Of a DNA stretch of 64,000 nucleotides, positions 47,930 through 62,203 are shown one piece after another; position 1 is the stretch's first letter, and each line of letters begins with the position of its first letter. Below the pieces are notes generated by a model. The model had not been told where the DNA came from. It was given only the letters and a program-made list of their open reading frames with translations, and did no database searches. The translations under genes and the position numbers were made by a program. The stretch is from Prochlorococcus marinus str. MIT 1013 (lineage in GTDB: Bacteria; Cyanobacteriota; Cyanobacteriia; PCC-6307; Cyanobiaceae): the NCBI RefSeq assembly GCF_027359395.1, contig NZ_CP114778.1, forward strand, positions 1,426,001-1,490,000. Direction: 5' to 3'.

Positions 47930-49513
47930 CTAACTATCCTCTCTACGTCCAAATAACAAAGTTACATTGATTCGGCGATTTTCATATCCGTCTTTGAATT
48001 CATAACTATCAGTTTCATGAAATAAATTAGAATTGAAGATAACAGCGCGATTTTGGTTATGTGGAATAACTTGTGTATTGCCTTTGCTTTTTTTTAGTTC
48101 TTCTCGGATTTTTGTTTTGTCATTAGGATTATTGTAAATTTTAAAATCCCAATCATGTGGAGCTTCTACGTCGTAAACGATTAAACCACCAGATTTGGGA
48201 TTTAAGTTGGCTTCTTTAGGAGTAATCCAAAAATTTACATTTATTGCTGCCTGATCTGCGTGAACTTTGATGCCTCTGAGTAATGAATTTTCATTTTTTG
48301 CGCGACTATCATACTTGTAAGCCCAGATCCCCTTTATTGGATGATTTTTGAAAATTTTTGGGAACTTTTTTCTAAGCTCTTCCGCTATTTGAATAATTAA
48401 TGGACTAGCTAAACCTTCTTTCAAATAAGCCCCAAGATATCCACCACTTTTAACATCGAACCAAATTGTACTTCCCAGTAAAAATTTGCGAAGAGATTTC
48501 AGAGCAGTAGGATTTAAGAAATTATCAATGTAAGTCAACCCGAATTCATGATCGAAATAGTTCTTTGTAATTTCTTCAATATTTAAGGAATTGTTTACTG
48601 CTTCTTTTTGTAATCTAGGTGCTTCTATTACATTAATTAAACGATTATAGCTATCTTTCAGAAGGCTTTGATGTTTATTATTTAGAGTAATTAATTGGGT
48701 TTCAGATGGCCAGTTAATCTCAGTAGCAATTTTTTTATAAAGAATGGCAAGCTTAGTAAATTTTTGGGTCTCGTAATCTTGGGAGACTAAATATTCAAAT
48801 TGTTCAATATCATGTTCGATTTTAGCTTTACTGATATCTTTGAATATTGAGGTATTAGGGTCTTGATTATTCTCTCCTCTAAGTAACTCAGCACTGTTTG
48901 AAAAATATTTAAGGGATAATTCGTGCGAACCTTTTTCAAGGAGTATTAATCCCAGATTGGAATGATTATTTGCCAAATCAGGTTTTAATTCAATTGCTCT
49001 GCGAGTAGATAATTCTGCTTCTTCTAATTTGCCTAGATCTTTCAATATGACTCCCAGATTGGAATAAGTATCTGCGAAATCAGGTTTAATTTCAATTGCT
49101 TTGCGAGTGGATAATTCTGCGTCTTGTAATTTGCCAAGATCTTTCAATATGCCTCCCAGATTGGAATGTGCTTCTGCGAAATCAGATTTGATTTCAATTG
49201 CTTTTCGATATAACAATTCTGCGTCTTCTAATTTGCCAAGATTTTTTAATATGACTCCATAATTATAAAAAACTCTGTGATCTCTACCTCCTTGATTAAT
49301 AAAAAGTTGATAATATTTTGTCGCTTGTGGAATATTTCCTTGTGAATGAAACTTAAATGCTTGATTGATTATTTGTTCTTTAGAAAGTTTGGAAAGAGTG
49401 TTCGTACTAATAGTTATATTTTCTTTTTTTTCTCCTAAAGCAAATGGAACTGGGAATGTAGTTACTTTAGTGCCTGATGTATTTACTTTCTTTGTTTGCC
49501 TATGTTTCTCCAT
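47930..49513 (-). CDS. TPR array member A: leader + TPR + 2OG/Fe(II) oxygenase-like domain
   Basis: The 527-residue protein starts with the array leader (PVPFALGE at residues 21-28, then SKEQIINQAFKFHSQGN). About five TPR units follow (residues ~45-200; e.g. FAEAHSNLGGILKDLGKL). After a linker, the C-terminal ~200 residues look like a 2-oxoglutarate/Fe(II) oxygenase: VHADQAAINVNFWIT supplies HxD, NSNLFHETD the distal His, and NRRINVTLLFG the Arg. It might hydroxylate a protein or other substrate bound by the TPR part, but that is inference. It is convergent with guaA. The start ATG is at 49513. Confidence 0.85.
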   Translation of the reverse strand: MEKHRQTKKVNTSGTKVTTFPVPFALGEKKENITISTNTLSKLSKEQIINQAFKFHSQGNIPQATKYYQLFINQGGRDHRVFYNYGVILKNLGKLEDAELLYRKAIEIKSDFAEAHSNLGGILKDLGKLQDAELSTRKAIEIKPDFADTYSNLGVILKDLGKLEEAELSTRRAIELKPDLANNHSNLGLILLEKGSHELSLKYFSNSAELLRGENNQDPNTSIFKDISKAKIEHDIEQFEYLVSQDYETQKFTKLAILYKKIATEINWPSETQLITLNNKHQSLLKDSYNRLINVIEAPRLQKEAVNNSLNIEEITKNYFDHEFGLTYIDNFLNPTALKSLRKFLLGSTIWFDVKSGGYLGAYLKEGLASPLIIQIAEELRKKFPKIFKNHPIKGIWAYKYDSRAKNENSLLRGIKVHADQAAINVNFWITPKEANLNPKSGGLIVYDVEAPHDWDFKIYNNPNDKTKIREELKKSKGNTQVIPHNQNRAVIFNSNLFHETDSYEFKDGYENRRINVTLLFGRREDS

Positions 49514-49840
49514 CTCTGCCGTTTCTTTTCTCTGAATCCTTTTATGTTACTACTTATCTTGAATCCTGTTTTATTCTTTCGAAAACCATTTTTTGCCTTT
49601 TTGAGTGAAACTAAAACGTAGGTTTGTATTATATTTCTACGTAGAGAACATAGGACAAGGGGACAAAATCACCAAACGGAAACAGGATGTAATATGATTT
49701 ACGTAATCTCTATATGAATGTCTAAAACGGAAATATAAAAGGGCAAAAATGTCTCCTACACGTTTCCCATACGTTTCCCACCAGAATTGAGAGAAAATTA
49801 GTTGAGTGAAGCACTGGGATTCCAAGGAATATTTGGGGTT

Positions 49841-49861
49841 GAAACTATTGAGTGGGAATAG
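49841..49861 (+). repeat. guaA 3'-end repeat, copy 2
   Basis: GAAACTATTGAGTGGGAA followed by TAG encodes ETIEWE-stop, matching the end of guaA at all but a few bases. The upstream flank is the 180-base block shared with 62.1 kb. Confidence 0.8.
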
Positions 49862-49979
49862 TCCACAGGGCAAAAACGTAGTCCACCACTCAAATTCGTT
49901 GTCCCCCGTAAGTTCCCCGTGCTATATTGCATTTAAGAAACCCTGTCACTCACTGCGTTTTTACACCCCATATATAGTA

Positions 49980-50000
49980 GGAACTATTGAGTGGGAGTGA
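49980..50000 (+). repeat. guaA 3'-end repeat, copy 3
   Basis: GGAACTATTGAGTGGGAG followed by TGA encodes GTIEWE-stop. The 18-base core is identical to the guaA end. The ~90 downstream bases, including a TATAACTAC/GTAGTTATA hairpin and TTCCACGTGAG, are shared with copy 4. Confidence 0.88.
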
Positions 50001-50087
50001 ATATAACTACAAAAGGTAGTTATAGATTAAAAGATGTAGTTCCACGTGAGTTCAAAGTAAAAAGTTATGAACCTAGTTCTAATGATT

Positions 50088-51749
50088 TTAGGAGGTTATG
50101 TAGTGATATTTATCCGTTTGAGTAAGGATTTCAATAGCAGGTTTCAGCATATCTTTGTAGTTCTTCCATCCATTAATTGATTTTGAATTGATAGGTGAAC
50201 GAACTTCAACATTACTTCTTGTGAAGATTGAGCGAGGGTTGAGATGCGGTGTTAGATATGATTCATTCCACTTCCAACCTAACCAAGAGATCAAAGATTT
50301 AATTTCTATATTAGGATTGCTTACTAACAAATCGTAATTCAAGTCGTATATTTTTGATCTAAATCTATTCTTATACCCTGTCATTAAGTCTTCTTGATTT
50401 AAATAAACTCTTGCACAATCAACCAAGGAAGAGGAATATTCATTCCCTATAGCAAAATTTGCTCGGTAAATTGAAAGAATATTATCTAAAGGATTCCTAC
50501 AGCAGTGTATGATTTTGGCATTCGGTATTTGATTACAGATAATACCTGCATATTGATAATTATATAAGTTTTTATTAGTTGTAATATTAATTGCACCCTT
50601 TAAACTATTAGCCTTCTTCCAATATAATTGAGCAATAGTTAGTTTTTGATCAACTTCTTTTTGCTCTAGGAATGATTCCTCGAGGATATCACTCTCTCCT
50701 AAATCATTAACACAAGTATTCATAGTGAGAATTGATTCCAATAATGTAGAACCACTTCTTGGCATTCCTACAATGAAAATACTTTTTGGAGATTGCATTT
50801 GTTCTTTTTTAGTAATCTCGTTTTTATATGATTGAATTAGTAATGCTCTAGATTTATTGATAATAATTTCAGGTTTAGATGGTTTGAGATAAAGTTTTAA
50901 TGTATTTGCTAAGTTAAGCCATTTGTAACTTTCTTCGTAATTTTTCTCCTTATGAAGAATATTTGCTCTAGCGAAGTAAATATGAATTTCATCTTCTTTT
51001 GATTTGTTTTTTAAGATAGTTTCAGAAAATAGGTTATCCTTCCATATTGTATTTTTATTGGAATATTTAAGAGTCGATAGAGAAAAATATGCCCTTGCGA
51101 AATCTGGTTGCAGTTCAATTGCTTTGCGTAATGAGATTTCTGCTTCTTCGAAGTTTCCAAGATTACTCAATATTCCTCCCAAATTGTAATGCGCCTCTGC
51201 CAAATCAGGTTTGATTTCAACTGCTTTGCGTAATGAGATTTCTGCTTCTTGTGATTTGCCAAGATCATTCAATATGTTTCCCAGATTGGAATGCGCCTTT
51301 GCGTAATCAGGATTGAGTTCAATTGCTTTACGTAATGAGATTTCTGCTTCTTGTAATTTGCCGAGATCTCTCAATATGTTTCCCAGATTTAAATGCGCCT
51401 TTGCGTAATCAGGATTGAGTTCAATTGCTTTGCGTAATGAGATTTCTGCTTCTTGTAATTTGCCGAGATCTCTCAATATGACTCCATAATTAGAAAAAAC
51501 TCTGTGATCTTTAAAATCTTGATTTATAAAATGCTGATAATATTTTGCTGCTTCTGAAATGTTGCCTTCCGACTGAAATTCAAATGCTTGATTGATTATT
51601 TGGTCTTTAGAAGGTTTAGAAAGAGTATTGGTATAAATAGTAAGATTTTCTTGATTTTCCCCTACAGGGAATGGAACTGGGTATGTTTTGATCTCAGGAA
51701 TTTTCTTCTTTCCTTCTTCTTCTTCTTCTTGACTACGATTATCCATCAT
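50088..51749 (-). CDS. TPR array member B: leader + TPR + sulfotransferase
   Basis: The 553-residue protein starts MMDNRSQEEE and has the array leader with PVPFPVGE at residues 24-31. About five near-identical TPR units follow (e.g. YAKAHLNLGNILRDLGKLQE, residues ~75-240). The C-terminal half is a sulfotransferase: IFIVGMPRSGSTLLESIL is the PAPS 5'-phosphosulfate loop, and IIHCCRNPLDNILSIYR lies where the 3'-phosphate-binding Arg/Ser segment is expected. The TPR domain could select a protein or peptide to be sulfated; the substrate is unknown. A putative -10 element lies 31 bases upstream of the ATG at 51749. Confidence 0.9.
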   Translation of the reverse strand: MMDNRSQEEEEEGKKKIPEIKTYPVPFPVGENQENLTIYTNTLSKPSKDQIINQAFEFQSEGNISEAAKYYQHFINQDFKDHRVFSNYGVILRDLGKLQEAEISLRKAIELNPDYAKAHLNLGNILRDLGKLQEAEISLRKAIELNPDYAKAHSNLGNILNDLGKSQEAEISLRKAVEIKPDLAEAHYNLGGILSNLGNFEEAEISLRKAIELQPDFARAYFSLSTLKYSNKNTIWKDNLFSETILKNKSKEDEIHIYFARANILHKEKNYEESYKWLNLANTLKLYLKPSKPEIIINKSRALLIQSYKNEITKKEQMQSPKSIFIVGMPRSGSTLLESILTMNTCVNDLGESDILEESFLEQKEVDQKLTIAQLYWKKANSLKGAINITTNKNLYNYQYAGIICNQIPNAKIIHCCRNPLDNILSIYRANFAIGNEYSSSLVDCARVYLNQEDLMTGYKNRFRSKIYDLNYDLLVSNPNIEIKSLISWLGWKWNESYLTPHLNPRSIFTRSNVEVRSPINSKSINGWKNYKDMLKPAIEILTQTDKYHYITS

Positions 51750-52154
51750 CTCTTATCTTTGCTCTCTTTTGGTTCTTCGGATTTTACTACTAATTTCAAT
51801 CTTTATTAATTCTTTCTGAAATTATTTTGAACTGATAGAGAGAGAATAAAAAAAGGTCTGTATATTTTTTTCTACGTAGAAGAGCAGGTGACAAGGTGAC
51901 AGAAACATAGTTATTGCCATGAAATTGAATGAAACACTCTACTACTTCCCTACAAAAGCATCACTGAGTGTATTTTCCCTTGTGATCCATTGGTATAAAT
52001 GGGTTTTGTGTGGCAAACTTTTACCGTCTCCATGGAGAAATCGTAGAAAGATGCTTTTCTATACAAAACCAAATTATTTTTATACTTGTTAAGTAGTCAG
52101 ATTTACGGTTTTCAAACTCAGAACTGATATATATCCGCGAAAATTTTTGGATAT
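51750..52154. other. Intergenic region before TPR member C 3' end
   Basis: No gene is seen. It holds the member B promoter-like block (51781-51800), a CTACGTAG palindrome at 51872-51879, and the CTCCATGGAG palindrome at 52028-52037 followed by ATCGTAGAAAGATG. That last element recurs at 56992 and, with changes, at 47828, 54141 and 59118. Confidence 0.7.
51781..51800 (-). promoter_or_regulatory. Conserved element upstream of TPR member B
   Basis: ATTTTACTACTAATTTCAAT on the plus strand gives a TAAAAT hexamer on the minus strand about 31 bases before the start codon. The same 20-base block stands before members C and the SGNH remnant and, shortened, before member D. A promoter role (-10 box) is inferred. 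Confidence 0.5.
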
Positions 52155-53738
52155 TTATCTTGAAATTTTCTTCAGTTTTCTAAGTTGGTTTTGTGAGGTT
52201 ATGTCTTGATATTTATCAGTTTGAGTAAGGATTTCAATAGCAGGTTTCAGCATCTCTTTGTAGTTATTCCATCCACCAATTGATTTTGAATTAATTGGTG
52301 AACGCACTTGAATGCTACTTGCCGTGGATACTGTGCGTGGATTTTGATGCGGCGATAGATATGAGTCATTCCATTCCCAACCTAACCAAGAGATCAAAGA
52401 TTTAATTCCTTTATTAGGATTGCTTACTAAGAAATCATAATTTAAGTCGTATATCTTTGCTCTAAATCTATCCTTATATTGAGTCATGATTTCTTCTTGA
52501 TCTAAATATACTTTTGTGCAATCAACTAAGGAAGAGGAATATTTATTTCCTCTAGCAAAATGTGCTCGGTAAATTGAAAGAATATTATCTAAAGGATGTC
52601 TATAGCAGTGGATAATTTTTGCGTTTGGTATATGCCGAGCAATAATACCTGCGTATTGGTAGTTGTATAACCATTTATTAGTTGTGATATTAAGTTCAGT
52701 CTTATTATTTACTTTTTCCTCATATAATTTAGCAAGATTTATCTCTTGTTTAAACTTCTTATATTCAAGGAATGATTCCTCTAGAATATTAACTTCACCT
52801 AGATCATATACATCATTACTCATACTTAGAATTGATTCCAATAATGTTGAACCACTTCTAGGCATTCCTACTATAAAAATACTCTCAGAAAAATTTCTGT
52901 GTTCTTTTTTATTAATCTCCTTTTTATTAGATTCAATAAGTAATACTTTAGATTTATTGATTAAACTATCTGCTGTAGATTTTTGAAGAATTAGTTTTAA
53001 TTCATTCGCCAACTCAAGGTATCTAGAACTTTCATTGTATTTCTTTTCCTTATGAAAAATATTTGCTCTTGCGAAGTAAATATCAACTTGATTTTTTTTT
53101 GATTTGTTAATTAAGATATTTTCAGAAAAGAGTTGATTCTGCCATATCTTATTTTGATCAGAATATTGAATTAATGATAGTGAATAATATGCTTCTGCGA
53201 GATTAGGATCAAGTTCAATTGCTTTACGAGTTGATTTTTCTGCTTCTTTTAAGTTGCCAAGATTTTTCAATATATTTCCCCGATTGGAATATGCTTCTGC
53301 GAGATTAGGATCAAGTTCAATTGCTTTACGAGTTGATATTTCTGCTTCTTTTAAGTTGCCAAGATTTCTCAATATAATTCCCAGATTGGAATGCGCCTTT
53401 GCGTAATCAGGATTAAGTTCAATTGCTTTGCGGATTGATAATTCTGCTTCTTGTAACTTGCCAAGATCTTTTAATATGACTCCATAATTAGAAAAAATCC
53501 TGTGATCATTACACCCTTGATTTATTAACTGTTGATAAGATTTTGTTGCTTCTGAAATATTCCCTTCTAAATGAAACTTAAATGCTTGCTTGATAATTTG
53601 CTCTTTAGAAAGATTAAAATGAGAATTAGTATTAATAGTGATGCTTTTTTGATTTTCTCTTAAAGGAAATGGAACTGAAAATGTTTTTACTTCAGTAATT
53701 TTATTCTTTCGTTCTCCTTCTTGACTAGAATTATCCAT
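52155..53738 (-). CDS. TPR array member C: leader + TPR + sulfotransferase
   Basis: The 527-residue protein has leader SVPFPLRE at residues 21-28, then SKEQIIKQAFKFHLEGN and three to four TPR units (e.g. YAKAHSNLGIILRNLGNLKE). The sulfotransferase part has IFIVGMPRSGSTLLESIL and IIHCYRHPLDNILSIYRAHFARG. It is closely similar to members B and D over the catalytic domain. Compared with D it carries an extra 12-residue tail (after DITS), where D has a TAG stop. The start is ATG at 53738. Confidence 0.9.
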   Translation of the reverse strand: MDNSSQEGERKNKITEVKTFSVPFPLRENQKSITINTNSHFNLSKEQIIKQAFKFHLEGNISEATKSYQQLINQGCNDHRIFSNYGVILKDLGKLQEAELSIRKAIELNPDYAKAHSNLGIILRNLGNLKEAEISTRKAIELDPNLAEAYSNRGNILKNLGNLKEAEKSTRKAIELDPNLAEAYYSLSLIQYSDQNKIWQNQLFSENILINKSKKNQVDIYFARANIFHKEKKYNESSRYLELANELKLILQKSTADSLINKSKVLLIESNKKEINKKEHRNFSESIFIVGMPRSGSTLLESILSMSNDVYDLGEVNILEESFLEYKKFKQEINLAKLYEEKVNNKTELNITTNKWLYNYQYAGIIARHIPNAKIIHCYRHPLDNILSIYRAHFARGNKYSSSLVDCTKVYLDQEEIMTQYKDRFRAKIYDLNYDFLVSNPNKGIKSLISWLGWEWNDSYLSPHQNPRTVSTASSIQVRSPINSKSIGGWNNYKEMLKPAIEILTQTDKYQDITSQNQLRKLKKISR

Positions 53739-53760
53739 TTTCTCTTTTTTGGTTCTTCCG

Positions 53761-53780
53761 ATTTTACTACTAATTTCAAT
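53761..53780 (-). promoter_or_regulatory. Conserved element upstream of TPR member C
   Basis: The block ATTTTACTACTAATTTCAAT is identical to that of member B and stands 22 bases before the ATG. The further upstream ~25 bases are also similar. The putative minus-strand -10 hexamer is TAAAAT. Confidence 0.5.
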
Positions 53781-53987
53781 CCTTATTCATTCGTTCTGAA
53801 ATCATTTACCACTTATAGAGCGAGAGTAAAAAGTAGATCTTTATATTATTTCTCTACAAAATGATCATTGAGTATAATTCTCCTTATAATCTATTGGCCC
53901 GATTGGTTTTACGTGGGTTTCAAGTGCTATATGTAAAGATGAAATTCGTTGGTATGACTGGGGTTTAGGAGTGCTCTTTTGTGATTG

Positions 53988-54005
53988 ACTATTGAGTGGG
54001 AGTAA
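53988..54005 (+). repeat. guaA 3'-end repeat, copy 4
   Basis: ACTATTGAGTGGGAGTAA encodes TIEWE-stop exactly as in guaA. The downstream ~90 bases match those after copy 3. Confidence 0.85.
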
Positions 54006-54262
54006 ATATAACTACTAAAAGATAGCTATAGATTAAAAATTGTAGTTCCACGTGAGTCTAAAGTAAAAATTGATGAACCTAGTTCCAATGGTTTTTGGAG
54101 ACGCGTTCCACGTGAGTTCCACGTGGCCCCTTGTCACCTTCTCTGTAAAGACATCGTAGAATGTTTGATTTCTCTAAACTTGTGATTTTTCAATGCATCA
54201 TTTACAAGGAATCTATTGACGACTTCTCTACATATTCTTTTGTCCTTAGGATTTAAAAAGGC

Positions 54263-54332
54263 ACAAAAAAACCTTTTCTAAAGCAGGTTTTCTTGAAGAT
54301 CAGTCGCAAGTGTTTCCCTGCTCTGATTTTTT
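54263..54332 (-). ncRNA. Yfr2-like small RNA (element 1)
   Basis: On the minus strand an ATCAG/CTGAT hairpin presents GGGAAACACTTGCG in its loop, containing the GGAAACA motif known from Yfr2-family RNAs. A second hairpin (AAAACCT/AGGTTTT, 54268-54291) ends in a run of T and is a terminator. The region from the terminator to the loop is homologous to element 4. It lies directly after the ppnP stop, so it could also be a 3'-UTR RNA. Confidence 0.62.
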
Positions 54333-54648
54333 AATCATCAAAATAAGAGCATGTGTAGTTTACTAATTCTGAAACCTCTAAACAAAATGAAGAATTTGGG
54401 GGGACAATAAAATCCATACCCTCTGTTATTAATGTCCAATCTTTATCACCTGCGATTTTTACATTTAGTTTTCCAGAATGGATTTCCATGAGTTCTCTTG
54501 ACGCAGTTTTAAATTCATATCCACCCTCCAACATCACTCCTAATGTTTTTTTTGAACCATCTTTTAAAAAGATATTCCGACTAATAACTTTACCTTCAAA
54601 ATAAATATTTGCTAATTTATCAACATCTACATTTTGATAGTTATTCAT
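54331..54648 (-). CDS. ppnP: Pyrimidine/purine nucleoside phosphorylase PpnP (DUF1255)
   Basis: This 105-residue cupin-like protein matches the PpnP/DUF1255 family, which cleaves nucleosides phosphorolytically. Characteristic are YFEGKVISRNIFLKDGSKKTLGVM, TASRELMEIHSGKLNVK and the GMDFIVPPNSSFCLEV segment. The length is near the usual ~94 residues. It is unrelated to the TPR genes on either side and is divergent from a small membrane-protein gene. A Yfr2-like element follows its stop. Confidence 0.88.
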   Translation of the reverse strand: MNNYQNVDVDKLANIYFEGKVISRNIFLKDGSKKTLGVMLEGGYEFKTASRELMEIHSGKLNVKIAGDKDWTLITEGMDFIVPPNSSFCLEVSELVNYTCSYFDD

Positions 54649-54696
54649 TTAGAAATACCCCAATCTAATTTTCTAATCACTAATCATAATATATAG

Positions 54697-54882
54697 ATGT
54701 TGAGTTTCATTTATGCACTTGTTATCCCAGTACTGATTTTGGGATTGCTTTATCTATTCATCATTGAGAATAATGGTCTTCCAGATTGGATGGAACGTGT
54801 CTCAAGAAATAGTGGCTCCGTCTGGACTTATGGAATTATTGCTATCGCCCTCGTTGGTATTCTTAGATATCTGATTCGATAA
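54697..54882 (+). CDS. Small two-helix membrane protein
   Basis: The 61-residue product has hydrophobic helices at residues ~2-24 (LSFIYALVIPVLILGLLYLFI) and ~44-58 (YGIIAIALVGILRYL), joined by a charged turn (NNGLPDWMERVSRNSG). The start is ATG at 54697 with a TATATAG sequence just before it. It ends exactly next to the convergent DUF1651-like gene. Function unknown. Confidence 0.65.
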   Translation: MLSFIYALVIPVLILGLLYLFIIENNGLPDWMERVSRNSGSVWTYGIIAIALVGILRYLIR

Positions 54883-55158
54883 TTAAGCAGCAGCATCATT
54901 GATTTGAGGCTCTATTAATTCCCAATCATTAGATAGCAGTTCATTCCACGTTTCATGGGCAGATTTATAATCAAGTCTTCTTGTATTTTTTAATTTGGTT
55001 GGAATGCCTTCTTCAGTGCAATACCAAAGTTGAGTAAAGACAGTGGGTGCAACCATGACCGACTTTGGATCACGAATAAAGAACAAACAAAAATCTCTTG
55101 TTGGTCCAACTAGCCAACCTGTTGGTGTTGGCAATGCTTCTCTGATTGGTTGATTCAT
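54883..55158 (-). CDS. DUF1651-like protein
   Basis: The 91-residue protein resembles DUF1651, a family typical of Prochlorococcus and marine Synechococcus: TGWLVGPTRDFCLFFIRD near residue 13, then TQLWYCTEEGIPTKLKNTRRLDYKSAHETWNELLSNDWELIEP with the conserved Arg-Arg/W pattern. Function unknown. It starts 26 bases after the terminator of small RNA element 2, so it probably has its own short leader. Confidence 0.75.
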   Translation of the reverse strand: MNQPIREALPTPTGWLVGPTRDFCLFFIRDPKSVMVAPTVFTQLWYCTEEGIPTKLKNTRRLDYKSAHETWNELLSNDWELIEPQINDAAA

Positions 55159-55183
55159 ACTTCTCTCCTTTAATTCAAGGCAT

Positions 55184-55262
55184 CAAAAAAGCACCTTGCT
55201 CACTGGTATTACGCAGGTGCTTTATGAGTGAGGACTGCTTGCGTGAGGAATGTCCTAGTACA
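55184..55262 (-). ncRNA. Yfr1/Yfr10-like small RNA (element 2, diverged)
   Basis: On the minus strand a first hairpin AGGAC/GTCCT has ATTCCTCACGC in its loop. The second hairpin AAAGCACCT/AGGTGCTTT (about 55188-55223) ends in a T-run as a terminator. It is the same two-hairpin design as elements 3 and 5, but its CTCCTCAC motif is altered (TTCCTCAC). Confidence 0.5.
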
Positions 55263-55337
55263 GATATACTATTAAATATTTAGTGGTTCGTCAAGCATCT
55301 GAATCTTTTTTTGGGTGCATTGAAATACTCTATAAAA

Positions 55338-55508
55338 ATGATATTCGAATCAAACAAAGGAAAATCCTTTATCAAAGAGCAAGCAATAGACCTAATGGTG
55401 TCATTTAGTGCAACTGACGCAAATTCAGAAAAGAAATGGAGAGGTTTCTATAACTCTTTATCGCAGAGTGAATTAAAGAATGAATGGGATGAATATTGGC
55501 AAACTTAA
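55338..55508 (+). CDS. Small hypothetical protein
   Basis: From ATG at 55338 the product has 56 residues (MIFESNKGKSFIKEQAIDLM onwards) and is charged and helical, ending SELKNEWDEYWQT. A TTG at 55311 would add nine residues. It is followed after 10 bases by a strong terminator, which supports it being a transcribed unit. I do not recognise the family. Confidence 0.5.
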   Translation: MIFESNKGKSFIKEQAIDLMVSFSATDANSEKKWRGFYNSLSQSELKNEWDEYWQT

Positions 55509-55518
55509 ACGCATGAAG

Positions 55519-55547
55519 AAGGGGGCAAGATTTTGGTTGCCCCCTTT
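55519..55547 (+). terminator. Intrinsic terminator after the 56-residue gene
   Basis: AAGGGGGCAA (55519-55528) pairs perfectly with TTGCCCCCTT (55537-55546) around an 8-base loop, with flanking A and T bases. It could work in either direction. Confidence 0.75.
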
Positions 55548-55695
55548 AAGTTCAGCACTTTTGTATCCATTTGAACAATCCATTTCCCGTACTAACCCTT
55601 CGCCGACCTACGACAACTCAAGTGCTAGTACTCCAACCCATTTCTAATCAAACCTAGAGATCGGAACATGAGAGTAAACACCTGTTTATTGCCCA

Positions 55696-55780
55696 AAAAG
55701 AAAAACCCCTTGCCTAATAGTGGCACTAAGGGTCTTTGTCTACCGCAGAACTTATTTTGTTGAGGAGTGTTCTGCTATTT
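55696..55780 (-). ncRNA. Yfr1/Yfr10-like small RNA (element 3)
   Basis: On the minus strand GCAGAAC/GTTCTGC (55745-55751 and 55769-55775) form a 7-base-pair stem whose loop carries ACTCCTCAACA, close to the Yfr1 motif ACTCCTCACAC. The terminator hairpin (CCCTT/AAGGG core) ends in TTTTTCTTTTT. Stem changes relative to element 5 are compensated (GC pair for AT), which supports the structure. The 55560-55695 stretch beside it holds no gene I can support. Confidence 0.6.
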
Positions 55781-55828
55781 CTTTTTTAATCAATTTCAAA
55801 AGAGGTCAACATTAGAATTTATTCCTAA

Positions 55829-55942
55829 TCAAAGATCGTCTTCATGATTTCCAAAGGGCTTATATCTGATATCGAAAATCAAAACTACTGCTGTGCTTAA
55901 AAGCAGTAATCCAAAAACAACTTGGGGAGGTGGAAATATCAT
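55829..55942 (-). CDS. Possible 37-residue membrane protein
   Basis: The frame reads MIFPPPQVVFGLLLLSTAVV, then LIFDIRYKPFGNHEDDL and stop. One hydrophobic helix (residues ~8-24) with a charged C-terminal tail is typical of small cyanobacterial membrane proteins. It is too short for usual gene finders. It lies between the terminator of element 4 (20 bases upstream) and element 3 (49 bases downstream). No convincing ribosome-binding site is seen. Confidence 0.45.
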   Translation of the reverse strand: MIFPPPQVVFGLLLLSTAVVLIFDIRYKPFGNHEDDL

Positions 55943-55961
55943 TAGAACATTCTAGAAAAGG

Positions 55962-56062
55962 CACAAAAAAACCGCCCAGTTCTCTTAGGGCGGTTTCTTT
56001 GTGAGATCAGGCGCAAGTGTTTCCTTGTTTCCACTGCGGAGGATCTCAACTCCTCACAAATT
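55962..56062 (-). ncRNA. yfr2: Yfr2-like small RNA (element 4)
   Basis: On the minus strand the loop contains GGAAACAAGGAAACACTTGC, with the Yfr2 motif GGAAACA twice, as known for this abundant cyanobacterial RNA family. The stem is TTTGTGAG/CTCACAAA with an alternative inner GAGATC/GATCTC. The 3' hairpin AACCGCCC/GGGCGGTT is followed by a T-run (terminator). Its 5' arm TGTGAGGAGTTG is the exact complement of the loop motif of element 5. Confidence 0.75.
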
Positions 56063-56150
56063 AAACTTAATCAACGTCACGAAAAGAGAAATACTGAGTA
56101 TTAGAGTTCTTTAACTGTCACATGTGCCAATTCTTTAAAATCAACCATTA

Positions 56151-56228
56151 AAAAAGCACCCTACTTACGCGAATTCGAGTGCCTTTTTACAACAGAACTA
56201 TTGTGTGAGGAGTTGTTCTGTTATTTCT
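56151..56228 (-). ncRNA. Yfr1/Yfr10-like small RNA (element 5)
   Basis: The minus strand has ACAGAAC/GTTCTGT (56192-56198 and 56215-56221) enclosing a loop with ACTCCTCACAC, identical to the ultraconserved Yfr1 sequence. A terminator hairpin with GGCAC/GTGC stem and TTTTTT tail follows. In classical Yfr1 the motif is between hairpins; here it is in a loop, so this may be a Yfr10-type relative rather than Yfr1 itself. Confidence 0.68.
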
Positions 56229-56408
56229 TTTCTACTCCTGTCTGCACCTTTTGTCACTACTAAAAAGACAAACTGATGAGAACCTACAAAATAGGAATAA
56301 GAACAAAGGATCCAAGAATAAAAAGTGGGGACTTTTAACGAGTTCTATCAATCATTAGATCCTGAATCAAATAAACTCTCTTAGTGTATTGAAGAAAAAT
56401 AGAAGATT

Positions 56409-56771
56409 ATGGATGAAACTTGGTTAAAAGAACTCAATCAAAGAAATCTTGAGTTGGAAGGAGAAGATAGTTCGAAATGGGATTGTGTAACCGTTTCTGT
56501 TTCGTCCTCAGTTTTAAACAAATTAAGTCAGGCAGAACAAGGGAAATTTGAAATTACTGAATTCAAAAGAGCAACGAATGAAATTGAGCATTGGGCAAGA
56601 GTAGAAGAAATATGTGATTTCTTTGGAGTTGAAGATCCCGATCTAGCAGGAGATGTCTATGTCAGAAAGTTCAAAAACTTGACTGTAGATGAGGAGAGTA
56701 GATGGATGGATTTAAAAGATATCAATGACGAGATACCTGAGGGTTTTGGCGTAAAAATCGATCGTAGTTAA
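56409..56771 (+). CDS. Hypothetical acidic protein
   Basis: The 120-residue protein is acidic and soluble with no signal or membrane segment. It starts MDETWLKELNQRNLELEGED; the middle has WARVEEICDFFGVEDPDLAGDVYVRKF. I do not recognise a family. The codon use looks like that of real genes here. The ~180 bases upstream hold no other supported gene. It stands alone between small RNA element 5 and guaA-end copy 5. Confidence 0.6.
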   Translation: MDETWLKELNQRNLELEGEDSSKWDCVTVSVSSSVLNKLSQAEQGKFEITEFKRATNEIEHWARVEEICDFFGVEDPDLAGDVYVRKFKNLTVDEESRWMDLKDINDEIPEGFGVKIDRS

Positions 56772-57152
56772 GGAAAGTTAAATAATTGTTTGCTCCCTTG
56801 CTAATGGAAATATTTGCTAATTCAATGTTGCCACGTGAGTTCCACGTGGAAAAATAGGGGAGAAAATCCCTATCCACCACTCAATAATTTGAGCAGGTGC
56901 TATTGATTGGGAGCAACGGAAACGTCTACTTTCCAGTGATAACTTGATTTATACGGTTTTACGTAGGTTTGAAGTGGCACATTTTTACCGTCTCCATGGA
57001 GAAATCGTAGAAAGATGCTTTTCTCTACAAATTAAATATTTTTATTCTGTGGAAGTTGTCAATTCCCCCTTTTATAAACCCAGAACTGATACATCTCTTT
57101 GAAGGTATTTGGATGTTTTTCGTCAAATTTTGGCCAGTTTTGTAAGTTGTTT
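56772..57152. other. Intergenic region with guaA-end repeat copy 5
   Basis: No gene is seen. It carries a CCACGTGAG/TTCCACGTGG double site near 56832-56850, the repeat at 56899, and the CTCCATGGAG palindrome at 56992-57001 with ATCGTAGAAAGATG after it. The last ~100 bases are homologous to the region downstream of member C (52038-52150). Confidence 0.65.
56899..56950 (+). repeat. guaA 3'-end repeat, copy 5 (with guaA downstream flank)
   Basis: GCTATTGATTGGGAGCAA is a changed copy of the guaA end without a stop. The following CAACGGAAACGTCTACTT and CAGTGATAACTTGATT nearly match the bases after the genuine guaA stop (47690-47725). This is the only other copy with that flank. Confidence 0.8.
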
Positions 57153-58802
57153 CTATGAGGTTATGTCTTGATACTTATTAGTTTGAGTAAGTATTTCAAT
57201 AGCAGGTTTCAGCATATCTTTGTAGTTCTTCCATCCACCAATTGATTTTGAATTGATTGGGGAACGAACTTCAACATTGCTCCTCGTTTTAACTGATCGA
57301 GTATTTAGATGTGGTGATAGATATGACTCTTGCCAATCCCAACCTATCCAATTGATTAAAGATTTGATTTCTTTATCAGGATTCTTAACTAATGAGTCAT
57401 AATTTAAGTCATATATTTTTGATCGAAACCTATTCTTATACTTACTCATTACTTCCTTTTGGTTTAAATAAACATTTGCGCAATCAACTAAGGAAGAAGA
57501 ATATTCATTTCCTTGCTCAAAATGTGCTCGATAAATTGATAAAATATTATCTAGCGGATTTCTATAGCAGTGAATAATTTTTGCGTTTGGTATATTCCCC
57601 GCAATAATACCTGCATATTGGTAGTTGTATAACCATTTATTAGTTGTGATATTCAATTCAGTCTTATGATTTACTTTTTCCCAATATAATTCAGCAAGAT
57701 TTATCTCTTGTTTAGGTTTCTTACACTCAAGCAATGATTCCTCTAGAATATTAATCTCACCTAGATCATGTACATCATTACGCAGACTAAGTATTGATTC
57801 CAATAAGGTAGAACCACTTCTAGGCATCCCTACAATAAATATACTTTCAGGATATTTTCTAAGTTCTTTTCTATTTATTTCTTCTTTATCAGATTGAATG
57901 AGTAATACTTTAGATTTATTGATTAAAAGATTCGCATTCGATGGTTGAAGATAAAGCTTTAATTTATTCGCCAATTTAAGGCATTTAGAACTATCTTCGT
58001 ATTTTTTTTCCTTATGAAGAATATTTGCTCTTGCGAAGTAAATATTAACTTGATCTTTTTGTGATTTTTTATTTAAAAAACTTTCTGAAAAGAGTTTATC
58101 TTTCCATATCTTATTTTCATCGGAAAATTTTAGTAATGATAGTGAATAGTATGCTTTTGCTAAATCTGGATTCAGTTCAATCGCTTTGATTACTGATAGT
58201 TCTGCTTCTTGTAATTTCCCAATATATCTCAATATTTTCCCCAGATTTAGATAAGCATCTGCGAAATTAGGATTGATTTCAATTGCTTTGCGAGTGTATA
58301 ATTCTGCTTCTTGTAATTTACTAATATATCTCATTATTTCTCCTAGATTTAGATAAGCATCTGCGAAATTAGGATTGATTTTAATTGCTTTTAGTAGTGA
58401 TATTTCTGCTTCTTTGACTTTCCCAATATCTATCAATATGTATGCAAGATCGTAATATGCTTTTGCGTAGTTAGGATTCAGTTTAATTGCTTTGCGAGTA
58501 TATAATTCAGCTTCTTTTAATTTCCCAAGATTTTTTAAAATTACACCATAATTAGAAAAAACTCTATTGTCATTAAAACCGCGATCAATAAAATATTGAT
58601 AATATTTTTCTGCTTGTTGAATATTTCCTTCTGAATGGAACTTAAATGCTTGATTAATTATTTGTTCTTTAGAGGGATTAGAAGGAGTTTTGGTATTAAT
58701 AGTAATGTTTTCTTTAATCTCACCTAAAGGAAATGGAACTGGAAATGTAGATACTTCATAGACTTTCTTTTCCCCTTGATCTTGCTCAGCAGATGGTTCC
58801 AT
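57153..58802 (-). CDS. TPR array member D: leader + TPR + sulfotransferase
   Basis: The 549-residue protein has leader PVPFPLGE at residues 21-28 and SKEQIINQAFKFHSEGN, then about five TPR units that are more diverged than those of B (e.g. FADAYLNLGEIMRYISKLQE). The sulfotransferase domain has IFIVGMPRSGSTLLESIL and IIHCYRNPLDNILSIYRAHFEQG. It ends at TAG directly after DITS, while homologous DNA continues past the stop as coding in member C. A shortened promoter-like block lies 30 bases before the ATG at 58802. Confidence 0.9.
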   Translation of the reverse strand: MEPSAEQDQGEKKVYEVSTFPVPFPLGEIKENITINTKTPSNPSKEQIINQAFKFHSEGNIQQAEKYYQYFIDRGFNDNRVFSNYGVILKNLGKLKEAELYTRKAIKLNPNYAKAYYDLAYILIDIGKVKEAEISLLKAIKINPNFADAYLNLGEIMRYISKLQEAELYTRKAIEINPNFADAYLNLGKILRYIGKLQEAELSVIKAIELNPDLAKAYYSLSLLKFSDENKIWKDKLFSESFLNKKSQKDQVNIYFARANILHKEKKYEDSSKCLKLANKLKLYLQPSNANLLINKSKVLLIQSDKEEINRKELRKYPESIFIVGMPRSGSTLLESILSLRNDVHDLGEINILEESLLECKKPKQEINLAELYWEKVNHKTELNITTNKWLYNYQYAGIIAGNIPNAKIIHCYRNPLDNILSIYRAHFEQGNEYSSSLVDCANVYLNQKEVMSKYKNRFRSKIYDLNYDSLVKNPDKEIKSLINWIGWDWQESYLSPHLNTRSVKTRSNVEVRSPINSKSIGGWKNYKDMLKPAIEILTQTNKYQDITS

Positions 58803-58831
58803 CTATATCTTTCTATCATTTGATGCAAGGT

Positions 58832-58844
58832 ATTTTACTACTAA
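58832..58844 (-). promoter_or_regulatory. Shortened conserved element upstream of TPR member D
   Basis: ATTTTACTACTAA matches the first 13 bases of the block seen before members B and C, at a similar distance (30 bases) from the start codon. The rest of the block has diverged. Confidence 0.4.
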
Positions 58845-59022
58845 CTCTGCAATAATTATTATTTTATTGTGAGCGCCATCAATTAGCAGTCTCTTTGAAT
58901 AGTTGCCTACGATATTTCTAAGGCAATGTCATCATTAAGAAGTTTCACTCAGAAACTATTGAGTATCAAATACTATGATTTCTTCAGTTATAAGAATAGA
59001 TCCTGAACTGTATATTTTTAGA

Positions 59023-59043
59023 GGAACTATTTAGTGGGAATAG
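59023..59043 (+). repeat. guaA 3'-end repeat, copy 6
   Basis: GGAACTATTTAGTGGGAA followed by TAG differs from the guaA end by a G-to-T change that creates an early TAG. The downstream bases with AGCTATAGATTGAAAG resemble those of copies 3 and 4. Confidence 0.72.
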
Positions 59044-59233
59044 TTATAGGTGTAAATCCCAGCTATAGATTGAAAGTAGTGATTTGTTACGGGTTTGTTT
59101 CGTAACCTTGTCATATTCTCTATAGAGAAGTCGTAGAAGAATTGATTTTTCTGCTTTATTAAATCCATCTTTTTGAAGAAATCAATGCTCTTAGCAACTA
59201 TGTCTATAAAGATGAGACTTATTTGGTAAAACT

Positions 59234-59460
59234 TTAAGTTCTATATAGGTGATTTTCAAATAATATAGAAAGGGATTTCGGAGACAGGTGAAATTGGTCG
59301 CACATATGAAGGTTGTTATTTTCTCCATTTCTAGTTGATGTCAATGTATAAATATCTAAAAAATAGGAACCCCTAGATAAAACTTCTTTCTTTAAGCATT
59401 CATTGTATCGTTTGATCATTTTAATTCTCTTTATATCTAACTCATCAAGAGAATCCTTTT
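59234..59460 (-). pseudogene. Remnant of an SGNH-hydrolase-type array member
   Basis: The frame from the ATG at 59419 encodes 61 residues ending with FLDIYTLTSTRNG and DQFHLSPKSL, which match the C-terminal end of SGNH/GDSL hydrolases including the Asp-x-x-His active-site block. The frame stays open upstream to about 59485 with no ATG, and homologous-looking coding reads KDSLDELDIKRIKMIKRYNE. Just upstream stands the promoter-like block of the TPR genes. The leader, TPR part and N-terminal hydrolase part are missing, so it looks like a deletion product. Confidence 0.6.
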
Positions 59461-59469
59461 CTTTTTCCG

Positions 59470-59489
59470 ATTTTACTACTAATTTTGAT
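59470..59489 (-). promoter_or_regulatory. Conserved element upstream of the SGNH remnant
   Basis: ATTTTACTACTAATTTTGAT differs from the B and C blocks at two positions, and flanking bases (CTATTAATTCTTTT, AAATCATTTTT) also match. It marks the remnant as a former member of the same gene family. Confidence 0.5.
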
Positions 59490-59649
59490 CCCTATTAATT
59501 CTTTTTTCAAATCATTTTTGTTTAATTTTTTATTACTATAAAACACGAGTCTGTTTGAATTTTTCTCTTTAAATTTTGACCAGTTTTGTATGAATATGCC
59601 TTATCTTCTGGAAATATTTTATTCTTAAAATATTTAGAATTGATGATTA

Positions 59650-61140
59650 TCAGAAGCCATAGAAATTAGCACTTAAAACTATTCTATCTTTTCTACCATG
59701 ATAGGAAACGGAATGATATCTTTCTGCACCAATGATTACCAACATATTGTTAGTTGGTAATATTTCTTCGTCAGGCTCATATAATTTTAGTATTCCAGGA
59801 TCTTCGCCATTTTGATCTCCTATATCTAGATAATAGATTAAGCTGTATTTATAAAATTTTAATCCAAAGAAAGAATCTCTTTTGCCTATATGCCAATGAG
59901 ACTTGGCACCAGCACTAGATCCGGATTTGAAAATATTAAAAAATGATTCGCAAATTATTATTTCCTTTAATCCAAGCTCGGCCTTACAAATGTTCTTTAA
60001 ATCATCTGAAAGGTTTGATATGGTAGGTGATTGATCATCAAAGAAATGAAGATCTTGGGAACAATACCCTTTTCCATATCGAGCATCTACTGTGTTATTT
60101 AGCTCTCGATTCTTGACACCATATAGATAAGTTAATAATTCATCTTCTCTTTTCCGATTTAAAATTAATTTATTTTTACTTTTATTAATTAATGATTTTG
60201 ACCTTTTTTTAATATCTAAGTTTTTTGAATATATTAAATTATTTCTTGCTAGGCCTGTTGCGTTTAGTGCGGCATTTATATAAGCTTTTTGATGGTTCTC
60301 TAGCTCTAGTGACTTTGCTTTCAATAGGTTATTTGTCACAACTTCAAATGCTTTTCTCTTAAAAATACAACCAGCATATAAAAAATATGCTTGCCAATCA
60401 GGTTTAAGTTCAATTGCTTTCTTTAGTGATAATTCTGCTTCTTTGAATTTCCCAAGATCACTCAATATGAACCCCAGATTGGAATGCGCCTCTGCGTAAT
60501 CAGGACTGATTTCAATTGCTTTTCGAGTGGATAATTCTGCTTCTTTGAATTTGCCAAGATCTTTTAATGTGTCTCCCAGATTGAAATGAGCATTTGCAAA
60601 ATCAGGTTTGATTTCAATTGCTTTTCGAGTGGATAATTCTGCTTCTTTGAATTTCCCCAGATTTTTTAATATGACTCCCAGATTGGAATGCGCCTCTGCG
60701 TAATCAGGACTGATTTCAATTGCTTTTCGAGTGGATAATTCTGCTTCTTTGAATTTCCCAAGATCACTCAATATTAGTCCCAGATTGGAATGCGCCTCTG
60801 CGAAATCAGGACTGATTTCAATTGCTTTTCGAGTAGATAATTCTGCTTCTTTGAATTTCCCAAGATTTTTTAAGATGACTCCATAATTAAAAAAGACTCT
60901 GTGATCATTAAAACCTTGGTTTATGAAATCTTGATAATATTTTATTGCTTCTAATATATTTCCTTGTGAATGAAACTTAAATGCTTTATTGATTATTTGT
61001 TCTTTAGAAGATTTAGAAAGAGTATTGGTATTAAAAGTAATTTTTTCTTTTATTTCTTCTAAATTATATGGAACTGAGAATGTTTTCACTCCAGTAATTT
61101 TCTTCGTTCCTTCTTTTTCTTGACTAGAACTATCCATCAT
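59650..61140 (-). CDS. TPR array member F: leader + TPR + oxygenase-like C-terminal domain
   Basis: The 496-residue protein has leader SVPYNLEE at residues 22-29 and SKEQIINKAFKFHSQGN, then six TPR units of nearly identical sequence (e.g. YAEAHSNLGVILKNLGKFKE). The C-terminal ~150 residues resemble 2OG/Fe(II) oxygenases: SHWHIGKRDSFFG, YYLDIGDQNGEDPGIL, and ERYHSVSYHGRKDRIVLSANF with the distal His and Arg. Assignment of the domain is less certain than for member A. The usual promoter-like block is eroded, so it may be read from the exported-protein gene upstream. Confidence 0.8.
   Translation of the reverse strand: MMDSSSQEKEGTKKITGVKTFSVPYNLEEIKEKITFNTNTLSKSSKEQIINKAFKFHSQGNILEAIKYYQDFINQGFNDHRVFFNYGVILKNLGKFKEAELSTRKAIEISPDFAEAHSNLGLILSDLGKFKEAELSTRKAIEISPDYAEAHSNLGVILKNLGKFKEAELSTRKAIEIKPDFANAHFNLGDTLKDLGKFKEAELSTRKAIEISPDYAEAHSNLGFILSDLGKFKEAELSLKKAIELKPDWQAYFLYAGCIFKRKAFEVVTNNLLKAKSLELENHQKAYINAALNATGLARNNLIYSKNLDIKKRSKSLINKSKNKLILNRKREDELLTYLYGVKNRELNNTVDARYGKGYCSQDLHFFDDQSPTISNLSDDLKNICKAELGLKEIIICESFFNIFKSGSSAGAKSHWHIGKRDSFFGLKFYKYSLIYYLDIGDQNGEDPGILKLYEPDEEILPTNNMLVIIGAERYHSVSYHGRKDRIVLSANFYGF
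60400..60890 (-). repeat. 102-base TPR-coding tandem repeats in member F
   Basis: Five to six units of 34 codons follow each other with few differences. Many of the differences are shared by non-adjacent units, which points to recent duplication or gene conversion. Confidence 0.8.
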
Positions 61141-61215
61141 CTCTTATCCTATTTGGTTCTTCTACTTTTCCTTTTCTAATCAAATTCATAAGGGTCAGTA
61201 TCGGAACATTATTAA

Positions 61216-61698
61216 TCAACAGTCAGCGTTAGCAATGCCCATACCAAGAACAGCACCTAGAGGAATAGACCATGCATAAGCATCTTTCTTGGAGATTGCA
61301 GCAGCAAGTCCACCTCCAAGAAGTCCTCCTGTGGTTGTATTACTTGAATTACAAGTACTTCCACTAGTTCTATAACTGTGAGAAACTAATACTTTTTGGT
61401 GAGTTGGCTTGTAATACCTGCGATGAGTGTGAGGGAAATAATGAACGTGATTATTGTGATAACGATATTTGGGAACCGGTGGAATCCAACTCAATGAAGA
61501 ACAAGGCACTTCAACCTTATCCAAATAGGACTTCACATAACCCATTAATTTTCTAGTTCCAGCAACATATTCCTCTTTGTAGATTTCCTTGTAGCAAGTT
61601 CGTTGAGTTGTATAACCCCTCTGGTGATGATATCCATCTGCCATTGCTGCCATTGGAGAGAGAAGTATTGCAGTTAGGAGTAATAGTCGCATTCTCAT
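61216..61698 (-). CDS. Exported protein with C-terminal glycine-zipper segment
   Basis: The 160-residue protein has a signal peptide (MRMRLLLLTAILLSPMAAMA). It continues with a Tyr/His-rich region, including CYKEIYKEEYVAGTRK, and ends TGGLLGGGLAAAISKKD ... WSIPLGAVLGMGIANADC, a glycine-zipper-like membrane-interacting segment. I believe such proteins are common in marine picocyanobacteria and their phages, but the function is unknown. It lies 75 bases upstream of member F on the same strand. Confidence 0.7.
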   Translation of the reverse strand: MRMRLLLLTAILLSPMAAMADGYHHQRGYTTQRTCYKEIYKEEYVAGTRKLMGYVKSYLDKVEVPCSSLSWIPPVPKYRYHNNHVHYFPHTHRRYYKPTHQKVLVSHSYRTSGSTCNSSNTTTGGLLGGGLAAAISKKDAYAWSIPLGAVLGMGIANADC

Positions 61699-62203
61699 TG
61701 TTTATTTCCATCTTTAATATAAACATAGGATTCTTCTAATCCAATAACAAGCAATTCAGACACTATGTGAATTGATTGGTGTATTAAGAAACAAGTTTTT
61801 TTAATTCAGTTATTATCTTTTTCCTTTGCTTTTTTTTCACCAATTGCTTGATTTTTGCCAGTGCTACATCATTGATTTAAATTGTAAGCTAGATTAAGTA
61901 TGAAAACCATAGGACTTATAAGAGCTATATATTGATATCGATTGGCTGTGGATCCGAATTTCTTATGATTTTTCGACTTAGAGATGTAAAATAAGAGGAT
62001 ACCATTGCCAGACCGAAACAGCATATAATTCGATTTACGTAATCACTAGATCAATATCTAAAACTACAAGATCATTTCATAGATGTTTCCTATGCCTTTC
62101 ACATGGGTTTCAAAAAAGAATTGACGAGAAATAGGTTGAGTAAGGGATTTGGATAACCATGAATGTTTAGGGTAAAGACTATTGATTAGAGTAGTGGAAA
62201 CGG
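61699..62203. other. Intergenic region with a block shared with 49.7 kb and guaA-end copy 7
   Basis: No gene is seen in these 505 bases. The part 62015-62196 is homologous to 49679-49860: GAAACAG, GATTTACGTAATC, TCTAAAAC, GAATTGA and GGTTGAGTAAG correspond in order. The first ~300 bases are AT-rich with no structure I can name. Confidence 0.65.
62177..62194 (+). repeat. guaA 3'-end repeat, copy 7 (diverged)
   Basis: GACTATTGATTAGAGTAG is followed by TGGAAACGGCTACT, which corresponds to the ACGGAAACGTCTACT after guaA. It lies directly before the 3' end of member G. Confidence 0.65.

Follow-up and report, generated by a model that had tools for sequence, protein, structure and literature searches.

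The small RNAs (sRNAs) Yfr1, Yfr2 and Yfr10 make up a well-studied sRNA network of Prochlorococcus, whose members are presented, in the published accounts on which we draw, as separate trans-acting sRNA genes. In strain MED4, Yfr2 binds both Yfr1 and Yfr10, and in E. coli a reporter repressed by Yfr1 was restored by Yfr2 (PMC6778093). A 270-nucleotide (nt) precursor comprising Yfr10 and Yfr2 was reported for MED4 (PMC2518516), and Yfr10 homologs were found upstream of Yfr2 homologs in high-light strains (PMC6778093). Here, five elements related to Yfr2 and Yfr10 (E1 to E5) were analysed within about 2 kb of a 64,000-nt stretch of the Prochlorococcus marinus MIT 1013 genome (contig NZ_CP114778.1, positions 1,426,001 to 1,490,000), hereafter designated as the window; the host genome is a single contig of 2,046,712 bases. 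While an earlier note on this DNA had described five tandem sRNAs, we consider it probable that the locus comprises a Yfr10-Yfr2 unit (E5-E4) together with the same modules built into neighbouring genes (E3, E2 and E1), with Yfr2 neutralising the Yfr10-type seeds. In their presumed order of transcription between 54255 and 56225, the elements are as follows.

56150 to 56225, minus strand: E5, putative Yfr10-type sRNA, with the loop ACUCCUCACAC in a AACAGAAC/GUUCUGUU stem, then a terminator
55958 to 56063, minus strand: E4, putative Yfr2 sRNA, with a GGAAACAAGGAAACA loop and a terminator; its 5' end, UGUGAGGAGUUG, is complementary to the E5 loop
55699 to 55779, minus strand: E3, diverged Yfr10-type element with the loop ACUCCUCAACAAAA, downstream of a 37-codon open reading frame (ORF)
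55184 to 55262, minus strand: E2, Yfr10-type hairpin and terminator with the loop AUUCCUCACGC, in the 5' leader of a DUF1651 gene
54255 to 54330, minus strand: E1, 3' half of a Yfr2 element with its terminator, in the 3' untranslated region (UTR) of ppnP, recognised by an exact GGAAACACTTGCG and by alignment to Yfr2 copies

All five elements are indeed present on the minus strand, each consisting of a 5' hairpin followed by a terminator-like hairpin with a terminal T run. Two further observations of the earlier note were borne out, namely the occurrence of GGAAACA in E1 (once) and E4 (twice) and the paired changes in the stems (AGGAC/GUCCU in E2, GCAGAAC/GUUCUGC in E3 and ACAGAAC/GUUCUGU in E5). 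A simple terminator scan detected none of the five, as it permits loops of 3 to 8 nt only and the element loops are longer. Compared with dinucleotide shuffles, the fold z-scores were -5.0 for E4, -4.5 for E5, -3.7 for E3, -3.1 for E1 and -1.3 for E2.

Since the bare motif CTCCTCACAC, with up to two mismatches, was not enriched in the window (22 seen vs 22.7 expected), covariance models were relied upon, the signal being the motif together with its structure. The Yfr10-type model R1 was built from five elements that carry the exact motif in this genome, and R2 from 39 of the 43 elements of this genome and its relatives scoring at least 53 bits with R1 (alignment A3); a second alignment, A2, holds 23 of 28 sense-strand matches of 27 to 48 bits. 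E5 is a member of R2, and both models were built without E3 and E2. In the 64-kb window, R2 ranked E5 (96.9 bits), E3 (40.9) and E2 (29.6) ahead of the next match (22.0), and E3 and E2 are probably diverged Yfr10-type elements. In the Rfam search suggested in the earlier note, E4 stood out: with 64.7 bits against RF01701 (gathering threshold 41) over the full model, positions 1-69, it is the one element above any Rfam gathering threshold in the whole window. E5 reached 29.9 bits against RF02362 (Yfr10), below the gathering threshold of 43, and was therefore named Yfr10-type; no element of this genome reaches that threshold. E1 had no Rfam match up to an E-value of 5, including RF01701, and Yfr1 (RF01116) had none in the window at gathering, nor in 53700-57200 up to the same E-value. 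The family types first proposed hold for E4 as Yfr2, E5 as Yfr10-type, probably E3 and E2 as diverged Yfr10-type and E1 as a Yfr2 derivative, but Yfr1 proper lies elsewhere, the genome having one strong match at 696041.

E5 carries the exact ACUCCUCACAC motif, with an unpaired probability of 0.97-1 in the predicted fold, and is located 87 nt upstream of E4. The two correspond to the Yfr10-Yfr2 pair already described, which is the usual arrangement in the genus; judged from their sequences, both look like free sRNAs, and by analogy they may act as the Yfr10 and Yfr2 of MED4. The 39 distinct Yfr10-type sequences keep 97.1% of pairs, and seven pairs show double changes vs 3.3 in shuffles and at most six in slid controls. 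The 5' end of E4 is predicted to form 12 contiguous base pairs (bp) with the E5 loop (-21.1 kcal/mol; shuffled loops have a mean of -10.4, and 0.25% reach this value), 12 bp flanking one bulge, and a further four, with the E3 loop (-15.9; 5% of shuffles) and 10 bp, including G-U, with the E2 loop core (-13.6; 2.5% of shuffles). The predicted folds leave the motif free of pairing in E5 and E3 and largely so in E2.

Provided that these elements are transcribed, the 5' end of E4 (UGUGAGGAGU) would pair with CUCCUCAC-type loops, and this pairing would neutralise the Yfr10-type seeds by titration, namely those of E5, probably of E3, and of Yfr1 elsewhere in the genome. E3 would sit behind the 37-codon ORF as a further copy of the module; E2, with its terminator, would form the 5' leader of a DUF1651 gene that has a LexA box, and E1 would serve ppnP as its 3' terminator. 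As a loop of this kind also occurs in the E2 leader, the DUF1651 mRNA could likewise be contacted by Yfr2. Beyond E4 and E5, participation of E3 is the firmest of the proposed steps, followed by LexA control of E2-DUF1651 and then by an action of Yfr2 on the E2 leader.

The arrangement was compared across 41 genomes, with 128 Yfr2 matches and 150 of the 178 R1 matches, so that the counts are lower bounds. At least 94 of the 128 Yfr2 matches are preceded on their own strand by a Yfr10-type element, at a separation of 66-90 nt in at least 85 cases, and at least 28 have one 213-325 nt downstream; among the matches listed, none of the 128 has such an element on the opposite strand within 450 nt. 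As the Yfr10-Yfr2 pair is common in the genus, the cluster is a dense example of a common arrangement. The cluster is less unusual than the earlier note proposed: among the matches listed, at least four other genomes have four elements in 2.5 kb and at least three have five in 5 kb, E1, E2 and E3 of the window being too weak to enter those element lists. This genome has six Yfr2 matches, one of them weak (33.2 bits), and five elements with an exact CTCCTCACAC besides Yfr1, plus diverged ones. The Yfr10-type 19-mer occurs in 60 stretches of the named collection, 50 of them from Prochlorococcus, the other 10 being one match each in unrelated bacteria and in a Trichodesmium bin. Outside the genus, R2 matches were found in 26 of 185 family genomes, with at most three per genome. 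The exact Yfr2 and Yfr10-type cores were not found in viral contigs, a probe for a phage origin from which diverged copies could escape.

Two side observations concern these families. At 1502035-1502258 of this genome, a Yfr10-type element stands beside the degenerate Yfr2 of 33.2 bits, perhaps as a decaying pair. A conserved TGTGACAGT/TGTGCCAAT stretch occurs about 50 nt upstream of many Yfr2 starts, for example at ca. 56110-56130 on the minus strand, and the TGTGACAGT stretch is a possible candidate for the GntR (CGRE1) site of Lambrecht et al.

The view of five tandem sRNAs is not supported by the genes among which the elements lie: E2 is the leader of the DUF1651 gene, E1 follows the ppnP stop codon, and the 37-codon ORF intervenes between E4 and E3. 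These genes and their signals are listed below.

55829 to 55942, minus strand: 37-codon ORF (MIFPPPQVVFGLLLLSTAVVLIFDIRYKPFGNHEDDL), which by eye looks like a single-pass membrane peptide with one hydrophobic stretch, between E4 and E3
55266 to 55294, minus strand: predicted promoter of E2-DUF1651, TTGACG and TAGTAT separated by 17 nt
55257 to 55270, minus strand: candidate LexA-type box AGTATATCTGTACT, overlapping the -10 element, with two mismatches to AGTACWNWTGTACT
54883 to 55158, minus strand: DUF1651 gene (PF07864, Pfam E 6.9e-28)
54331 to 54648, minus strand: ppnP, pyrimidine/purine nucleoside phosphorylase gene (PF06865, Pfam E 2.1e-32), downstream of DUF1651

E2 lies directly downstream of the promoter and about 26 nt before the DUF1651 ATG, a place between promoter and start codon that makes it a leader. 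The promoter scan recovered TTGACG/TAGTAT, but with 6 promoter-like sites vs 10.7 in shuffles, fewer than expected, it is weak alone, and the promoter claim is carried by the conservation of the leader. The DUF1651 sample comprised 78 rows, of which 60 were used for distances (18 weak or fragmentary rows omitted) and 30 had DNA for leaders. A LexA-type palindrome with one to three mismatches to AGTACWNWTGTACT overlaps the -10 element in 29 of these 30 leaders of the genus, that of L209 being the sole one without it; 28 of the 29 boxes are matched by at most 3.5% of shuffled leaders and the remaining one (L186) by 16%, and an exact TTGAC is found at the -35 place in 27 of the 29. Two boxes of this class lie just upstream of the probable ATG of the genome's own lexA. 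Genome-wide, the pattern AGTAYNNNTGTACT is matched at five places, three of them directly upstream of DUF1651 genes (in the window, at 1863016 and at 1025693), and the reversed control gave one match per strand. The remaining two places, 435080 and 1538070 (L222 and L225), show boxes AGTACACTTGTACT and AGTACACATGTACT beside small ORFs that are alike, both ending in HVQLAFA, with no Pfam match.

The box and the E2 leader recur at a second full DUF1651 copy (97% identical), there preceded by an E3-type element, and R2 unaided also detects the DUF1651 leaders of three other genomes (G003, G005 and G014). A hairpin of another kind, with a terminator, is seen in many other DUF1651 leaders, and in two loci (L191 and L209) Yfr2 itself lies 167-210 nt before the DUF1651 start. 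In six complete genomes, at least 8 of 13 DUF1651 genes (weak rows omitted) lie less than 5 kb from a listed Yfr element, such places covering 1.7-3% of each genome. Cyanophage infection induces DUF1651 genes in MED4 and Synechococcus, and the account that describes this does not separate their effect on infection from that of a neighbouring gene (PMC5490813). This induction fits the LexA box, and the DUF1651 gene of the window would seem to respond to phage infection and to DNA damage. Between DUF1651 and ppnP, at 54697-54882 on the plus strand, lies a 61-codon ORF, hydrophobic by eye, with no Pfam or NCBIfam match.

Pairing of the leaders with Yfr2 was compared in 16 E2-type and 7 other leaders, picked by eye. 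Among the E2-type leaders, 12 of 16 retain 9-10 uninterrupted pairs with Yfr2, via C-to-U and A-to-G changes tolerated by G-U, and these 12 have duplex energies of -12.4 to -15.8 kcal/mol vs -6.2 to -12.5 for the seven controls. One extension of the proposed model, which we regard as doubtful, is that DUF1651 genes controlled by LexA and responsive to phage took on Yfr10-type elements as their leaders, and that Yfr2, whose level in MED4 rises under nitrogen starvation and in high light, pairs with the loop of the leader and so decides terminator read-through. It is very improbable that E2 is an autonomous attenuator, governed not by Yfr2 but by an internal switch between CUCAC and AGUGAG of the terminator loop. 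AGUGAGC is found in that loop in E2 and several relatives, with CUCACU upstream in the window leader; however, by eye, CUCACUC is replaced by CUAACUC or CUAGCUC in relatives such as L181 and L186, whereas AGUGAG is unchanged. This internal CUCACU/AGUGAG switch was rejected, its pairing not being conserved in relatives.

At the 3' end of the cluster, E1 directly follows the ppnP stop codon. In the ppnP sample (12 rows in 11 loci, the L217 locus being truncated by the end of its contig), a DUF1651 match, broken in some loci, lies 236-418 nt upstream of ppnP in all 11 loci; E1 is recognisable in 8 of the 10 assessable loci and absent from L215 and L220. The exact 13-mer GGAAACACTTGCG occurs five times in the 2.05-Mb genome, always in Yfr2-like elements including E1, and never in the reversed-pattern control. 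E1 shares this 13-mer, the following stem and the terminator with other Yfr2 copies, the 5' half being absent, and on this alignment it is a truncated Yfr2 derivative in the ppnP 3' UTR. The conserved places of E2, from promoter to start codon, and of E1, after the ppnP stop, both kept in relatives, argue against all five being separate trans-acting sRNA genes in a dense regulatory cluster. We hold that explanation to be unlikely, even though each element has a hairpin and a terminator, E5 and E4 match known sRNAs, and E3 and E5 have in common a TTAGAAAAG-like stretch before the hairpin. Terminator-bearing leaders and 3' UTRs can also release sRNAs, which counts in its favour.

The 37-codon ORF starts about 20 nt past the Yfr2 terminator, and 113-117 nt past the Yfr2 5' motif in intact copies. 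It was found in 14 copies (11 distinct) in 25 loci, with no NCBIfam match. Summed pairwise differences among distinct copies amount to 200/97/552 at codon positions 1/2/3, and 478 of 720 codon differences are synonymous (242 non-synonymous). This third-position excess and synonymous majority are as in a gene under purifying selection. The placement of E3 recurs in relatives, at +275 to +285 in 17 loci, of which 12 have the ORF intact.

A possibility to be taken seriously, though we would not favour it, is that E1, E2 and E3 are decayed Yfr2 or Yfr10 duplicates that are now ordinary terminators without any seed role. E1 lacks the Yfr2 5' half, and its terminator has decayed further in two of the eight E1-bearing loci (L212 and L219); in 15 of the 23 rows of the alignment, the motif of E3 is TCCUUACC; and the loop changes of E2 are chiefly transitions, which are common anyway. 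Yet Yfr2 pairing survives these E2 changes in the 12 of 16 leaders mentioned above, the canonical CUCCUCACACA is present in three DUF1651 leaders (G013, G039 and G014), and a terminator before a start codon would be odd unless controlled.

Several observations, besides the low RF02362 score of E5, weigh against a Yfr10-Yfr2 unit with modules built into neighbouring genes. Neither E3 (motif CUCCUCAACA) nor E2 (motif UUCCUCACGC) has the exact 11-mer, and with its z-score, E2 alone folds no better than chance. By eye, [CT]TCCTC[AG] is present in only 9 of 30 DUF1651 leaders, and the DUF1651 gene at 1025693 has no such leader, its box lying 17 nt before the ORF start. Yfr2 pairing is lost in 4 of the 16 E2-type leaders, while two of the seven other-type leaders pair nearly as well as the weakest E2-type ones; a longer piece of E2 prefers a duplex with Yfr2 via a second CCUCAC stretch (-16.7 kcal/mol; 8.6% of shuffles). 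On the Yfr2 side, the predicted ensemble has GAGG of the E4 5' motif mostly base-paired (unpaired 0.10-0.41) with CCUU behind the T run, the flanks being open, so that the motif is not clearly exposed. Of the seven double-change pairs, one belongs to the first hairpin, the other six being in the terminator; in the first hairpin of the E3 type, all six core pairs are invariant and thus lend it no covariation support. The TTAGAAAAG-like stretch immediately upstream of E3, as of E5, suggests that E3 may have its own promoter. Lastly, the 37-codon ORF is altered or missing in 5 of the 17 loci with E3, being a frame-changed version of 36 codons in L166 and L167 and not found in L160, L170 and L173.

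As to the surroundings, the earlier note had pointed to guaA repeats beside the cluster in an accessory region; what adjoins it is a TPR-sulfotransferase tandem array, the cluster filling an extra 2.86 kb between two array copies (copy spacing 2103, then 4962). The tandem TPR genes extend over 47930-64000 of the window with similar 5' regions, and the two genes tested both have sulfotransferase domains. An exact palindromic repeat, CCACGTGAGTTCCACGTGG, flanks the cluster at 54108-54126 and 56831-56849 and occurred in none of 100 shuffles.

If island genes do carry modules of this network as their leaders and tails, the network has nameable, testable targets close by, and DUF1651, a phage-induced family of unknown function, gains a regulatory hypothesis, with a LexA box and, in part of the family, a Yfr10-type leader. 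Should Yfr2 act on the leader, the global Yfr1/Yfr2/Yfr10 network would be tied to the SOS response and to the response to phage, the sRNA lying next to the leader that it targets. A literature search of titles and abstracts returned nothing on the features of E2, E1 or the 37-codon ORF, which is no proof of absence.

The locus can be set against five described systems. For cyanobacterial LexA boxes, the consensus is AGTACWNWTGTACT, and AGTATATCTGTTCT is tabulated for Nostoc recA in the account cited (PMC3091678); AGTATATCTGTACT over the DUF1651 -10 element resembles them but differs by two mismatches to AGTACWNWTGTACT and is a putative site. The DUF1651 host-response genes PMM0684 and PMM0819 of MED4 and SYNW1658, placed in genomic islands, share the Pfam domain of the window gene, whereas the passages of that account drawn on here mention neither an RNA leader nor a LexA box for them (PMC5490813). 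Yfr1 (RF01116) and E5 have the 11-mer in common, but Yfr1 is a separate gene at 696041. The Yfr1 motif is located between two stems, whereas that of E5 sits in a hairpin loop. With the Yfr2 family (RF01701, Cyano-1; Yfr2-5 of Prochlorococcus MED4), E4 shares a full model match, the GGAAACA loops and the GUGAGGAG 5' end; the locus differs in the 37-codon ORF after the E4 terminator and in E1, a truncated copy in a 3' UTR. E5 resembles the Yfr10 family (RF02362; Yfr10, Yfr12 and Yfr18 of MED4) in its ACUCCUCACAC loop, its hairpin and terminator and its position directly upstream of Yfr2, but it scores below the Rfam cut-off, and diverged copies occur here on the downstream side of Yfr2 (E3) and within the leader of an mRNA (E2).

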